From NCBI GenBank assembly GCA_003252395.1, contig QKEL01000009.1, forward strand, positions 62,001 to 126,000: a DNA stretch of 64,000 bases, read 5' to 3'. This DNA comes from Spirochaetales bacterium (lineage in GTDB: Bacteria; Spirochaetota; Spirochaetia; Treponematales; Treponemataceae). Shown piece after piece: positions 8,045 through 12,820 of the stretch. The notes under the pieces are model-generated. The model saw only the letters and a list, made by a program, of their open reading frames with translations, was not told the origin of the DNA and searched no databases. Numbering within the stretch: position 1 is the first letter of the stretch; each line of letters opens with the position of its first letter. A program made the position numbers and the translations under genes.

Positions 8045-8073
8045 TAAACTTGGAAAAAAAAAGGATATTTAAT

Positions 8074-9222
8074 ATGACCCGAGAAGAAATGTTTGTATCA
8101 TTAATTGAAGGAATGCCATCTTTTGATGGTCGTTATTCGAATCTTTGTTGTATTAATAATTATGCTAATCCTATTCCAAATAAACGTCAGGGCCAGTTTT
8201 CCGTAGTTTTTTCTGCAACAGATGATGTTACAGATGAAAGAGTTATTATTAAGGTTTATGATCCCTTCCGCCCCAGTAAGTTTCGGATGGATTGCTTTGA
8301 AAGGGAAGGTGAAGTTCTTCAAGAATTGATTGATAAAAATAGATGTTTGCAATTAAAGAAAGCCATCAATACAACAGATGTTCAATTACCTGTCACACCA
8401 TCACCAATTGATATTTCATTAAGTTATTTCGCCACAGAGATACTTCCAGTTGATATTTTTGAAAAGTTTAACCAAAAAGGAAGTATGCCTATTGATGATA
8501 AGATTGATTTGTTTAGAGAAATATTACTTGGTATTCGTGCATTACATATGCATAAGGTTTATCATCGTGATTTGAAACCAGACAACCTACGCGGAGAAGA
8601 AAAAGATAATCGTGTTATTGCAATTGATCTAGGAACAGCTGTATTACCTAAAACCGTTCATGTGCTTAGTAGTTATGAAAAAGTCCAAGTGGGACACCCT
8701 TCGTATGCTTCACCTGAAGCCTGTTGTGGGCTATATGGTCATCGAGAGTTAAGTATATATAATGACTACTATTCCTTGGGTTGCATAATGTTTGAATTAT
8801 TTACCCCAAATACACTTTACCTAGAGTTACATAAAAAAAGAATCACGGATATCATATCATTATGTGAATTTCAGATGGCATCAGAACCTGAATCAACAAA
8901 AATCTCAAAATGGCATGAAATCGCACATTATTACACAAACAGATTAGATTATCCGACGTTAAGTGATTATCCAAACGATATATCAAAATCGATTATTAAT
9001 TATCTTGAAAGAATACTTCATGGTTTTATTCGTTTTGATTACCGAGAACGAATAAACATTGATGAAGCTTTAAGATTAATAGATATATGTATTAAAATCA
9101 GGAGTAACGATAAGTTTGAAAAAGAACTTCAAAAACGCCATCAAGTATACAGGTTAAACCGTATTGCAAAAATTATAAAGATGAATACAAAATACTTATC
9201 AGCGGGAGAATGTCATGATTGA
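8074..9222 (+). CDS. Hanks-type Ser/Thr protein kinase
   Basis: 382 residues from ATG 8074, chosen because AAAGGA lies 9 bases before it; an upstream TTG at 8050 has no such site. Kinase motifs in order: glycine loop GQFSVVF (41-46), VIIKVYD with Lys60, a C-helix glutamate near 78, HRDLKPDN (164-171), metal-binding DLG (185-187) instead of DFG, and SPEA in place of APE. All catalytic residues are present. There is no membrane segment, so the kinase is cytosolic, unlike most PknB-type sensors. It overlaps the TPR gene by 8 bases, implying a two-protein system. Confidence 0.9.
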   Translation: MTREEMFVSLIEGMPSFDGRYSNLCCINNYANPIPNKRQGQFSVVFSATDDVTDERVIIKVYDPFRPSKFRMDCFEREGEVLQELIDKNRCLQLKKAINTTDVQLPVTPSPIDISLSYFATEILPVDIFEKFNQKGSMPIDDKIDLFREILLGIRALHMHKVYHRDLKPDNLRGEEKDNRVIAIDLGTAVLPKTVHVLSSYEKVQVGHPSYASPEACCGLYGHRELSIYNDYYSLGCIMFELFTPNTLYLELHKKRITDIISLCEFQMASEPESTKISKWHEIAHYYTNRLDYPTLSDYPNDISKSIINYLERILHGFIRFDYRERINIDEALRLIDICIKIRSNDKFEKELQKRHQVYRLNRIAKIIKMNTKYLSAGECHD

Positions 9223-10981
9223 AGATAATGGGAAGGAGATTAGCAATGAAATCATGAATGCTGAGCATAATACTCGGATTGAAGTAGTATTCAACTCTCT
9301 TCAAATTGAACTACCATCATTTGAAGAAATTGCCAAAATTAAGTCGCTTGGGTTTGAACATATTCGAATATTAGAGCAAGGTTTAATTGGTAAAGACAAT
9401 AGAGAGATTATCATTCAAGAAAAGTATAGCTTTGAAAAACATCTTGATAAATTGAATGATTCCGAAGTTTTTTTCTATAGACTATCAGCTTTCTATGAGT
9501 CTTTAGGAGATTATGACAAAGCAATTGAACTTGTCCAACGAAGTAGTGAATTATCTGATAAACCGTTTATTAAAGAAAAATATGGGGAGCTCCTTCTTAG
9601 AAGAGATGTTCCTGAAGGTGTAAAGATTCTTGATGAATTAAAGACAAATGATTCTTGTGTGAACTTAGCACTACTTTATATACAAAAAAGAGATATTGAA
9701 AAATCATTGTTTTACGCAAAATATGCTTATGAGAATTTTGATTTACATCATAAAATATCAACCACTTATGCATTATTACTATTATTAAATAAGGATTATT
9801 GTCAATCAATTGCTATTCTTAAAGAACTAGTTCATGAAAAAGATGCACCCTCATATGCGTATTATTTGATATCTTTATCATACTTTATCATAAAACAATA
9901 TAAGAAAGCTTTTCAGAATATCAGGATTGCTTATGCGCTTAATCACTTCAATCGTGACATACTTGTTCTATACTGTGCATTAAATGAGATGGACGGTAAT
10001 CTTAATCAATCAATTATTGCACTTGAAGAATATTGCAAGTGTAACAAGCCGGATGAATACATCTGGCAACTTTTATCAAAATACTATTATTTGACAAATA
10101 AATTTGAGAAAGCCATTAAACCATTACAAGCCGTTATTACACTAAACGATAAACTTGATTGGGCATGGAATAATTTAGCATTGATATGTTTGAAGCAAAA
10201 GAACTATGAAAAAGCAAACAAATATTTATCTCATGCGCTCACGCTAACTAATGATGATACAGTTGTGTTTAATTATTTGCAGTTACTTTACGAATTGAAA
10301 GAATTTAGTTCTATTATTGACATTTTTACTGCTCTACGACGTGATAGAAAAGATGCGACTTATTCAGATATTTTCTTTCAATCATTTGAATGCTATGTAG
10401 AATCATTAAAAAAGCTTAAGAAATATTCAGAATATATTAGCGAACTTTTATATTTCTATCAATTTTGCAAATCAAGTAATCAAAATGAAAATAGTATATT
10501 GAACTACATTTTGTGCTATTATGCATCTGAAGACAAAAATCGTCTTCAGGTATACCGCTTCATTGAATTACTTGATGAATCCATTAGTAAAAATGGGATT
10601 ACTAAGAAAAGCTATATTAAATCAATAAACAATCTTGCATTCGCATATCTTGAGCATAATGATATTCAAGGTTCTGAAAAATATATCAAATTACTTACTG
10701 CTTACCTTGATAACAATCCATATTATACCGCAACATATGGTTTGTATTGTTTGAGGAACTATAATATTACCAAGGGGGAGCACTATTATAATAAAGCAAT
10801 AGGATTTTCAATTGATCCAGAGATAAAGAAACTACTTGCACATAAACGAGACTATGAAATTGGGAAAGTGTATATTTTTGAAGGATTGCGAACTAATGCA
10901 ATCACGTTTCTACGAAAAGCTACTGATGGTTCAGATTTTGTTGCAAAAGAAGCTTTGAGTCTGTTAGATGAAATTAGGTGA
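9215..10981 (+). CDS. Large TPR-repeat protein paired with the kinase
   Basis: 588 residues made almost wholly of tetratricopeptide-type helix pairs from about residue 80 onward. Examples are FYESLGDYDKAIELVQRS, YLTNKFEKAIKPLQAVI, WNNLALICLKQKNYEKANKYL and ATYGLYCLRNYNITKGEHYY. The first 80 residues are not TPR-like. No signal peptide, membrane helix or enzymatic motif is visible. The start lies inside the kinase gene (8-base overlap). TPR arrays bind partner proteins, so this is probably a substrate, sensor or scaffold for the kinase. The codons are extremely AT-rich, unlike the host half of the window. Confidence 0.85.
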   Translation: MIEDNGKEISNEIMNAEHNTRIEVVFNSLQIELPSFEEIAKIKSLGFEHIRILEQGLIGKDNREIIIQEKYSFEKHLDKLNDSEVFFYRLSAFYESLGDYDKAIELVQRSSELSDKPFIKEKYGELLLRRDVPEGVKILDELKTNDSCVNLALLYIQKRDIEKSLFYAKYAYENFDLHHKISTTYALLLLLNKDYCQSIAILKELVHEKDAPSYAYYLISLSYFIIKQYKKAFQNIRIAYALNHFNRDILVLYCALNEMDGNLNQSIIALEEYCKCNKPDEYIWQLLSKYYYLTNKFEKAIKPLQAVITLNDKLDWAWNNLALICLKQKNYEKANKYLSHALTLTNDDTVVFNYLQLLYELKEFSSIIDIFTALRRDRKDATYSDIFFQSFECYVESLKKLKKYSEYISELLYFYQFCKSSNQNENSILNYILCYYASEDKNRLQVYRFIELLDESISKNGITKKSYIKSINNLAFAYLEHNDIQGSEKYIKLLTAYLDNNPYYTATYGLYCLRNYNITKGEHYYNKAIGFSIDPEIKKLLAHKRDYEIGKVYIFEGLRTNAITFLRKATDGSDFVAKEALSLLDEIR

Positions 10982-11364
10982 TATAGATATGGACTATAAT
11001 GGTTTCGTGTTAACAGTCTATTTCATATATGCACATGATCACCATATACGCCTACATTATGATTGAAAAATGAGTCCTGTTTCCTCGTAGGTCTAAGCTA
11101 TTTCTTTGAAGTTGTTTACAAGGTAATAATAACGAGTAATATTGTTCCTTAGATTTCCGTAATGGCGGGTTAGTTAAGTAAATCATTGGAGTCAATAATA
11201 TCTTCATGTTATTTGAAGTTTTTGCGAAATTTATAGATTATTTCTTTCGTTATGACCATACCTGTTACTTGCACTGGTATAGGCGTATAATCAATACTTT
11301 TTAAGTATCAATTATACGCGATTATTAATTCTATAATAGGGCAGAGTTGCCCCCGCCCTCGTGG
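10982..11364. other. Gene-free AT-rich stretch after the kinase-TPR operon
   Basis: I see no reading frame with a ribosome site. It holds the long hairpin at 11283-11319. It also holds an inverted pair of TATACGCCTA (11045-11054) and TAGGCGTATA (11280-11289), the second copy of which enters that hairpin. Confidence 0.5.
11283..11319. repeat. Long imperfect inverted repeat
   Basis: GCGTATAAT, CA, ATACTT, loop TTT, AAGTAT, CA, ATTATACGC: two stems of 6 and 9 base pairs around a symmetric CA/CA bulge. No T-run follows on either strand close by, so it is not an ordinary terminator. It may be a protein-binding site or a weak transcription end for the 50-residue gene at 11365. Confidence 0.55.
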
Positions 11365-11517
11365 CTAATCGTGATCCTCTTCCTCTCGTTCATCGCCACG
11401 ATATTCGTTGTTGTTTGGGTTCAACTGATCGGCATGGTTATCGAGCGAATCCCAATAGGCATTATTGTTCGGATTCATCGAGTCACTGCGATCATCATTT
11501 GAACTTCTGCTTCCCAT
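11365..11517 (-). CDS. 50-residue protein with duplicated NPNN motif
   Basis: A strong ribosome site, AGGAGG, lies five bases before ATG 11517. The 50-residue product is very polar, with two related blocks: SDSMNPNNNAYWDS (residues 11-24) and ADQLNPNNNEYRGD (29-42). The tail is GDEREEEDHD. It has no Cys, signal or membrane segment and is probably partly disordered. I have an impression of similar small NPNN proteins in many bacteria but know of no function. It is the only gene downstream of the structured leader RNA and its strong promoter. Confidence 0.75.
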   Translation of the reverse strand: MGSRSSNDDRSDSMNPNNNAYWDSLDNHADQLNPNNNEYRGDEREEEDHD

Positions 11518-11534
11518 TCAATCCTCCTGTCCGT

Positions 11535-11554
11535 ATCAAGAGATGTCTCTTGAT
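11535..11554. repeat. Perfect palindrome in the leader of the 50-residue gene
   Basis: ATCAAGAGA-TG-TCTCTTGAT, nine-base arms with a two-base centre, ends 18 bases before the ATG and next to the ribosome site. It could act as an operator or as an mRNA hairpin adjoining AGGAGG. Confidence 0.6.
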
Positions 11555-11572
11555 GTTAAGTAAAGAGATTAT

Positions 11573-11590
11573 AACGACTATATAGTCGTT
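11573..11590. repeat. Second perfect palindrome in the same leader
   Basis: AACGACTATATAGTCGTT is an uninterrupted 18-base palindrome, 19 bases from the previous one. Read leftward it is followed by TATAATC, so it could also cover an internal promoter. Confidence 0.6.
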
Positions 11591-11616
11591 CTGTGGGCGG
11601 AGCTTATTGAGGCTCT

Positions 11617-11728
11617 GAATAATCATTAGTAGTATCCAGCTTGTGCTGGGTAGATGATAGATACCAGAATTGAATCTGGCGATTGATAGTAGCTCCGGAT
11701 TTCCCGGAGAAGTAGTATTTTGTTATTC
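11617..11728 (-). ncRNA. Candidate structured leader RNA: outer stem enclosing three regularly spaced hairpins
   Basis: Read leftward from the predicted transcript start: GAAUAA (11728-11723), a 13-nt linker, hairpin CUCCGG/CCGGAG (11709-11693), 13 nt, hairpin CCAGA/UCUGG (11679-11664), 14 nt, hairpin CCAGC/GCUGG (11649-11636), 13 nt, then UUAUUC (11622-11617) closing the outer stem. The linkers are unpaired and alike, rich in UACUACU and CUAUC. The stems differ in sequence but the geometry is constant, as expected if structure is selected. A fourth small hairpin GAGC/GCTC (11615-11600) follows. I recognise no known RNA family. Confidence 0.6.
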
Positions 11729-11732
11729 AGCG

Positions 11733-11761
11733 AATATAAACCGATATTATCCGGTTGTCAA
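11733..11761 (-). promoter_or_regulatory. Strong promoter with a palindrome in its spacer
   Basis: TTGACA (11761-11756), exactly 17 bases, TATATT (11738-11733). The spacer carries AACCG and CGGTT arms (11739-11743 and 11752-11756), a typical place for a repressor. The expected start near 11728 coincides with the 5' strand of the leader RNA's outer stem. Confidence 0.75.
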
Positions 11762-11772
11762 GGAGTCAAAAA

Positions 11773-11796
11773 AAAGGCGAGCTTTAGCCCGCCTTT
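11773..11796 (-). terminator. Terminator of the AT-hook protein gene
   Basis: AAAGGCG-A-GC, loop TTTA, GC-C-CGCCTTT; read leftward it is followed by eight T. It lies just after the stop of the gene at 11800 and insulates it from the promoter at 11733-11761. Confidence 0.85.
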
Positions 11797-11799
11797 CAC

Positions 11800-12111
11800 T
11801 TACTTCTTTCCTCGTTTCTTTGGAGGGGTCTCACTAATCGAATTGTCGTTTAACATTGGGAGGTAATCTGCCCTGCTTTTTTCCTTAGCTGGTCTTCCAC
11901 GCTTTTTCGGAGGCTCACCTGATTTTGAAACTTTCGTCTTTGGAGTTATTTCCTTTTTAGGAATTGCTTTTTTTGTTTTTGTTTCAGGAGACTCCAAGGG
12001 GTTCACTACTATCGGGTCAAGTTGCTCTGCTAAGTCCGCTATGGCAAAGGCAAGCTGGGCAGCCTTATTTTCGAGAGTTCTTAACTTTTTAACAATTTGA
12101 GCTTGGGTCAT
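11800..12111 (-). CDS. Small basic protein with AT-hook motifs
   Basis: 103 residues. Residues 5-32 form a helix or short coiled coil (IVKKLRTLENKAAQLAFAIADLAEQL). The rest is Lys/Pro-rich and disordered, with PPKKRGRPAK and the shorter TPPKKRGKK at the end. KRGRP is the minor-groove-binding AT-hook core. This suggests a dimeric architectural DNA-binding protein, suited to AT-rich island DNA. It lies next to an excisionase-like gene near the island boundary. An involvement in island recombination or silencing is inference. Confidence 0.7.
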   Translation of the reverse strand: MTQAQIVKKLRTLENKAAQLAFAIADLAEQLDPIVVNPLESPETKTKKAIPKKEITPKTKVSKSGEPPKKRGRPAKEKSRADYLPMLNDNSISETPPKKRGKK

Positions 12112-12227: not shown

Positions 12228-12554
12228 CTATTTTTTATAGAGCTTAGCCATTTCTTCATCATTCTGATGAATCCATTCTTGTATTGTATCCCATCGCCAT
12301 TGGGGCTTCGTTCCAATGATGGCATCCGGCACTCCTCCGCGAGGTTTAAGATATGAATATGCCTTGTTTGCAACTGAGCCATCATTGATATTCTTGAGGG
12401 CGCACGCTTCTTTCAGGGTATAATATTCCTTCCTAGGGTTAAGCTTGGTCTTCAGCTCTTCTACTTCCTTATGTAAAGACTTGATTTCAACAACCAAATC
12501 GTCAAGGAAAGGTGCTCTGATAATAAATTCGGGGGACATTTCTGGATTTTTCAT
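12228..12554 (-). CDS. Excisionase/MerR-like small DNA-binding protein
   Basis: 108 residues: an N-terminal coiled coil (LDDLVVEIKSLHKEVEELKTKL), then YYTLKEACALKNINDGSVANK, a winged-helix recognition unit, and WRWDTIQEWI. The pattern 'trigger helix, YTLKEAC, ... PQWRW..I..W' is that of AlpA/Xis-type proteins. No catalytic part is present. It lies only about 210 bases from the tRNA-Leu remnant, a normal place for a recombination directionality factor. It could equally be a plain transcription regulator. Confidence 0.65.
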   Translation of the reverse strand: MKNPEMSPEFIIRAPFLDDLVVEIKSLHKEVEELKTKLNPRKEYYTLKEACALKNINDGSVANKAYSYLKPRGGVPDAIIGTKPQWRWDTIQEWIHQNDEEMAKLYKK

Positions 12555-12767: not shown

Positions 12768-12820
12768 GCCTTGAGGTGCTAGTGGGGCGACCCATGGAAG
12801 TTCAAGTCTTCTTCGCCGCA
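12768..12820 (+). pseudogene. 3' half of tRNA-Leu(GAG): attachment site at the island boundary
   Basis: GCCTTGAGG supplies the anticodon loop with GAG, followed by the 3' anticodon-stem strand TGCTAG. Next come a long class II variable arm (TGGG-GCGA-CCCA), a T arm (GGAAG, loop TTCAAGT, CTTCT), acceptor strand TCGCCGC and discriminator A73. CCA is not encoded. The 5' half is absent: nothing upstream could pair as GCGGCGA, and the 5' anticodon stem is broken just before GCC. The remnant therefore marks a site-specific insertion at the anticodon loop. Leu is inferred from GAG, the long variable arm and A73. Confidence 0.8.

Follow-up and report, generated by a model that had tools for sequence, protein, structure and literature searches.

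The locus described here forms the right end of an integrative element in what is probably a spirochaete genome. It was analysed within a 64-kb window, by which we mean the whole stretch of DNA, whose GC content lies at 30-44% over roughly the first 12.5 kb and at 47-67% beyond that point. The window's genome contains a tRNA-Leu gene (L232:7156-7237), and an attR-like copy of its 3' end can be found on the plus strand of the window at 12770-12820, as a 51-bp exact repeat of L232:7187-7237. This direct repeat bounds the 25.6-kb element, and the structured leader and small gene that we focus on are situated 1.0-1.4 kb inside its right end. Next to the tRNA lies a phage-type integrase, and the element further encodes a DNA methylase, a Schlafen-domain protein, a type I restriction helicase, and type I methylase and specificity genes. 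A protein kinase and a TPR protein matching PADLOC models are located at 8050-10981 (plus strand). For the kinase, mad6 is the best model and PDC-M71A is matched as well (E 5.3e-12), and for the TPR protein the best model is PDC-M71B (E 1.3e-11); PDC-M71A and PDC-M71B make up a candidate defence pair in PADLOC. The element is thus a carrier of restriction and defence-like genes. By eye, we also noticed GGGACCATTTTAGGACCACTTCG near both ends of the element, where it resembles an arm site.

A 103-aa protein with repeated PPKKRG motifs is encoded at 11800-12111 (minus strand); relatives of its gene occur in 3 of 170 genomes of the order, the window's own included, and the other two adjoin unrelated genes. 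A neighbouring 108-aa gene has relatives in 8 of these 170 genomes (again including its own). One of them, in the spirochaete genome G093, lies 5 kb from a relative of the small gene, and related elements are therefore suggested. A scan of viral contigs for the two neighbouring proteins returned no relative.

The 103-aa gene is followed by an intrinsic terminator (11797-11772, minus strand), which lies immediately 5' of a sigma-70-type promoter on the same strand (11761-11733). The original prediction had recognized this near-consensus promoter, TTGACA and TATATT separated by 17 nt, and rightly so, since 11 of 12 positions match the consensus. It had also placed a palindrome in the promoter spacer, and a dyad (AACCG/CGGTT) can indeed be read from the minus-strand sequence there, although it is imperfect and has arms of only 5 bp. 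Transcription usually starts 6-7 nt past the -10 box.

Downstream of the promoter, the minus-strand fold contains the three strong hairpins that had been foreseen. H1 (11709-11693) has 6 bp and a 5-nt loop, and its pair probabilities range from 0.39 to 0.99 in a modelled transcript running from 11727 to 11365. H2 (11680-11663) consists of 6 bp, including one G-U, around a 6-nt loop; its pairs reach 0.58-0.63 in the same transcript and a mean of 0.98 in a transcript of 11727-11470. H3 (11649-11636), with 5 bp and a 4-nt loop, forms at 0.99-1.0. The linkers around these hairpins measure 13, 12, 13, and 13 nt. The lengths given earlier (13, 13, 14, and 13) hold if the G-U closing H2 is left uncounted, as was apparently done, and not otherwise. 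All four linkers are poor in G (1 G in 51 nt). Linker 2 (CUAUCAAUC, 11692-11681, minus strand) deserves separate mention, as its positions 11689-11681 are the predicted partner of the start region of the small gene (11523-11514). The UACUACU/CUAUC character ascribed to the linkers did not hold up: it is equalled in 12 of 200 shuffles of the letters and in 51 of 200 that preserve dinucleotides, and the likeness falls within dinucleotide composition. Nor do the stems differ wholly in sequence as had been claimed, for CCAG/CTGG can be read in both H2 and H3.

An outer stem was thought to enclose the three hairpins in one regular plan. An 8-bp complementarity does exist on the minus strand, between CTGAATAA (11730-11723) and TTATTCAG (11622-11615), and it encloses 11730-11615, but its pairing in the transcript depends on the transcription start. 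The stem folds when the transcript begins at 11728 or earlier and is lost when it begins at 11727 or later; in transcripts extending to 11365, its probability amounts to 0.01 from 11728 and 0.30-0.36 from 11730. Its first base, 11730, is upstream of the usual start position, and the stem is missing from the minus-strand fold under single-stranded DNA parameters. On these models an outer stem in the transcript, and hence the regular enclosed plan, is doubtful and not supported.

Between the hairpins and the gene, the further palindromes that had been announced are present on the minus strand. The first is a perfect 18-mer (11590-11573), either an operator or a hairpin, H4, with a probability of 0.85-1.0. 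The second is an inverted repeat with 9-bp arms and a 2-nt spacer (11554-11535), predicted to form hairpin H5 at 0.88-0.99 just 5' of the Shine-Dalgarno sequence. Between the two lies CUCUU (11567-11563), the predicted partner of AGGAG (11528-11524). The expected AGGAGG (11528-11523) and small gene follow, the latter a 50-codon open reading frame (ORF) at 11517-11365 on the minus strand, and 0 intrinsic terminators were called between H1-H3 and this gene. On its 3' side, a 9-bp hairpin with a GCAA loop and a 17-bp inverted repeat occupy 11364-11283 (minus strand), where no intrinsic terminator was called either. This 3' flank is the most structured place in the window.

The minus strand at 11732-11600 folds at -35 kcal/mol, compared with a mean of -20.3 for its shuffled versions (z -4.50; 0 of 200 shuffles as low). 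We also scanned both strands of the whole stretch for structure in 4260 windows of 121 nt, with 12 shuffles each and the best 60 rescored with 60. The place of H1-H3 came out as the third row and the second distinct locus, and rows 1 and 2 overlap each other and lie 3' of the same 50-aa gene. Taken by stretch, the leader (215 nt) has a z of -4.55, the coding part -0.72, and the 3' flank (120 nt) -6.19. The leader hairpins exceed chance. Folding alone is no proof of an RNA, however, because the plus strand opposite the leader also folds, at an even lower energy than the minus strand (-42.8 kcal/mol, z -3.42, 1 of 200), and the minus strand retains a z of -3.88 with single-stranded DNA parameters.

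Searches for relatives of the leader were made in several collections. With the Rfam 15 covariance models, 0 matches at the gathering threshold were obtained in the whole window, and at E values up to 10 the region 11300-11800 yielded 14 matches, all under their gathering scores (the best with 20.7 vs 56 bits). The original remark that no known RNA family has such a plan thus holds for Rfam 15. Using blastn, a single copy of the leader was found in its own genome and no leader match in plasmids and phages. Among 98 relatives, 61 gave something at E<=1, which outside the leader's own locus amounted to mere 15-36-base matches (lowest E 0.01). A search of 274 family genomes with 11260-11765 at E<=1e-4 returned its own genome alone. 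In viral contigs, one exact H1 pattern had no match, and a gapped pattern of 15 bases lacked the specificity to be useful.

We also used a covariance model, R1, which is built from one single sequence. Applied with stricter filters to 390 genomes of the order, it matched 12 at E<=1, the window's own included, with 0.03 as the next best E value, which is expected by chance because 390 genomes were searched. In a set of 19 loci, it picked up 11 from the order search and weakly L024, and none in the G093 locus (L011); the six alignments that were inspected look like chance. Nine loci with relatives of the neighbouring genes gave two weak and unconvincing matches (E 0.17 and 1.8). One distinct leader sequence is therefore at hand, and no base pair varies; the selection for structure that the original prediction had read into the stems is not supported.

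The gene itself is less isolated. Its acidic protein of 50 residues (MGSRSSNDDRSDSMNPNNNAYWDSLDNHADQLNPNNNEYRG...) belongs to a conserved, unnamed NDDRSDSMNPNN family of small proteins. It matches no Pfam or NCBIfam family at cut-off and none in PHROGs or PADLOC (Pfam WXG100 comes below cut-off, at E 0.1), and none of the papers in the library searched mentions NPNNDAYW or RSDSMNPN. A pattern scan of a species-genome collection nonetheless found a relative encoded at 62 loci (62 of 151 stretches). According to their titles, these are mostly from Gammaproteobacteria and Betaproteobacteria, and also from Chloroflexi, archaea, a few others, and one spirochaete. Together with 2 viral loci they constitute the family set of 64. 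The 29-residue core is comparable in 39 of the 64, where 21-27 residues (median 26) are identical to those of the window. As far as these sequences tell, the small-protein family NDDRSDSMNPNNDAYWDSLDNHANQLNPNN (L164-L226) is highly conserved across bacteria and archaea. Close to home, the gene appears from genome searches to be rare. Some match to the 50-aa protein at E<=0.01 is found in 11 of 390 genomes of the order, its own included, and several of these belong to a looser NPNN type; of 392 genomes sampled across the phylum, 1 has a match at E<=0.001, and it is the window's own. Two side observations concern the architecture of the family. In some Chloroflexi and archaeal loci, the family protein makes up the C-terminal portion of a longer ORF, and at some loci (e.g., L169 and L171) another small hydrophilic ORF was seen by eye 5' of the family gene.

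The upstream 215 nt could be folded for 59 of the 64 relatives, the other 5 being left out for an unmatched motif or for short or ambiguous flanks, and gave a mean z of -0.27 and a lowest value of -2.47 vs -4.55 here. R1 matches none of the 62+2 loci up to E 10. Since R1 occurs in 0 of 64 loci and none of the 59 is as structured, the leader is not a trait of the family.

The nearest spirochaete relative of the gene, in G093, was compared with the window more closely. Its upstream region has short collinear blocks in common with the leader, namely ATATTCGCTGA, TACTAT, CTACTAATG, and an imperfect fourth. This block score is reached by 44 of 2000 shuffles, and among the leaders of 61 other relatives 3 score higher and 1 equally; for the best single local match, 76 of 2000 shuffles do as well. 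The G093 leader does not fold significantly (z -1.10, 29 of 200). Homology is not claimed, as shuffles and the leaders of other relatives score as high. G093 also has a second, truncated 3' copy of the small gene across a 304-aa ORF, which contains a phage-integrase N-terminal domain (PF02899, E 5.7e-9). From the sequence, it looks as though an element had inserted at the 3' end of the small gene. As a general integration target the small gene was rejected, as among 73 loci a second partial copy is present in G093 only (L182/L011); the integrase motif of this 73-locus check missed G093's own integrase-like ORF and is uninformative on integrases.

We tentatively favour, at somewhat less than an even chance, a structured 5' UTR that is so far peculiar to this locus and holds the start site of the 50-residue gene closed. 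The element would thus carry a small gene with a structured leader of about 210 nt. Transcription would start at about 11726-11728 and proceed through H1-H3, then H4 and H5, into the gene. CUCUU at 11567-11563 would pair with the AGGAG of the Shine-Dalgarno sequence, and linker 2 (11689-11681) would bind GAUUG together with some of the neighbouring AUG. The hairpins would shorten the path and bring linker 2 near the start codon, so that translation of the 50-residue protein may be kept low or conditional. What favours this restraint on translation is the strength of the fold (z -4.5, at the second-ranking locus for structure), together with the pair of helices predicted to close the start site. 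The regulatory leader of the original prediction accordingly survives in part: the promoter is there, no terminator was called before the gene, and the start is predicted closed, but all of this closure comes from fold models and is a prediction only.

In transcripts ending at 11470, the probability that the Shine-Dalgarno sequence is unpaired is 0.04 when the transcript starts at 11727 and rises to 0.31, 0.59, and 0.65 with starts at 11600, 11560, and 11534. The five linker-2 pairs beside it have probabilities of 0.93-1.0 in 3 of 4 transcript lengths and of 0.55-0.56 in the one ending at the stop codon. Of 400 versions with linker 2 alone shuffled, 1 equals the native pairing with the start region, and 1 keeps the Shine-Dalgarno sequence equally closed. 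The stretch from Shine-Dalgarno to AUG is unpaired at 0.22 here, vs a mean of 0.49 in 52 relatives, none of which is closed to that degree; this comparison leaves out 12 of the 64 loci, and the relatives' 210-nt upstream stretches may not be leaders. Several results count against such a restraining leader. When only the Shine-Dalgarno stretch is compared, 3 of 52 relatives equal it in closure, and shuffled leaders, too, keep it mostly closed (mean unpaired 0.17-0.18). Shuffling all linkers yields as much total pairing between linkers and start in 21 of 400 cases. In 150-175 of 400 linker shuffles the energy is equally low, so the native linkers add no stability to the fold; forcing linker 2 open costs just 1.7 kcal/mol. 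Further points against it are that no homologue was found in which the stems could covary, that the relatives are without such a leader, and that the opposite strand folds too. It is also a post hoc reading, one among several tried. A more specific idea, for which we see little likelihood, is a new type of riboregulator encoded by the element. Its three hairpins would serve as spacer and hold the linker, as an internal antisense segment, against the start codon of the unusually conserved small protein, until a factor from the element, or an incoming phage or plasmid, sets it free. A Rho-dependent attenuator was tried and set aside, as the C-spacing pattern of the leader also appears in 426 of 594 bins of 215 nt and is uninformative.

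Two other explanations are, in our opinion, similarly unlikely. The hairpins could be an mRNA stabilizer, in which independent 5' (and 3') hairpins protect a very short mRNA against nucleases and the pairing at the start site is incidental. This would fit the observation that structure in the window peaks at two loci, one on either side of the gene, and not in the coding part, and the fact that H3-H5 form in both modelled transcripts. Yet a leader starting at 11727 opens with 18 unpaired nt, unlike a 5'-terminal stem-loop, and downstream structure is common in the relatives (mean z -1.77 at 59 loci), where it probably represents terminators. The second explanation, to which we attach no greater weight, holds that AT-rich non-coding sequence of a mobile element happens to form these hairpins, which serve no selected RNA function. 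The lack of a copy in the sampled relatives is in keeping with such neutrality, as are the linker likeness within dinucleotide composition, the many linker shuffles folding as well (150-175 of 400), and a regularity picked after the fact. It is harder to reconcile with a z of -4.5 at the second distinct locus among 4260 windows and with a closed start region that is rare among linker-2 shuffles (1 of 400).

Less probable still are palindromes acting at the DNA level, as operators or as recombinase or replication sites of the element, with the RNA fold as a by-product. The many dyads (one within the promoter spacer, another a perfect 18-mer) would suit them, and both strands fold, also with single-stranded DNA parameters (z -3.88). 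The attR lies about 1 kb away, and a nearby ORF (12228-12554) has a weak helix-turn-helix match to phrog_668 (E 2.7e-4). However, the stems are not copies of one site: at the search settings used there is no direct repeat among them, nor is there a tandem repeat, even though H2 and H3 share CCAG/CTGG, and the arm-like repeats seen by eye near the att cores are situated elsewhere. The remaining proposal, a free small RNA or protein sponge using the UACUACU/CUAUC linkers as repeated binding sites, is very improbable. In its favour are the near-equal spacing of the linkers and their low G content (1 G in 51 nt), and an RNA ending before the gene is conceivable, since hairpin clusters have been reported to terminate transcription (PMC8355165); against it are a linker motif within dinucleotide composition, no intrinsic terminator called before the gene, a single genomic copy, and the lack of a known candidate partner. 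The sponge or antisense target first envisaged for this RNA finds no support, on the same grounds of motif and copy number.

Taken alone, one structured leader that lacks relatives amounts to a modest finding. If the leader gates translation, it would provide a handle on when the integrative element expresses a highly conserved small protein.

Several known systems resemble the leader in part. Type III antitoxin RNAs consist of near-identical tandem repeats of about 35-45 nt, and an endoribonuclease toxin gene is found downstream. Such type III toxin-antitoxin loci share with ours the order of a promoter, an array of small RNA structures, and then a gene. In contrast, the leader here has no tandem repeats, and the 50-aa acidic product matches no family at cut-off, leaving the place of the toxin gene unfilled. 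The stabilizing ompA-type 5' UTRs of Escherichia coli have hairpins and single-stranded linkers ahead of the gene. Hairpins joined by single-stranded linkers before a gene are what our leader has in common with them, whereas it is without a 5'-terminal hairpin if transcription starts at 11726 or 11727, and its small gene is of another family. RNA thermometers and translational riboswitches are alike in that here, too, a helix is predicted over the Shine-Dalgarno sequence and AUG in a structured leader. The Yersinia ompA thermometer (PMC8245352) is an example of a 5' UTR that sequesters the start site. Sequestration at low temperature is also found in our model, with the Shine-Dalgarno sequence unpaired at 0.02 at 25 C. 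A thermometer was nonetheless rejected, as the model opens little on heating (0.04 at 37 C, 0.06 at 42 C, and 0.14 at 50 C). As for a translational riboswitch, the leader has no Rfam match at gathering score, no known ligand, and no homologue in which a conserved aptamer core could be seen. By its sequence, the leader is an orphan seen only here; in kind, it is ordinary.
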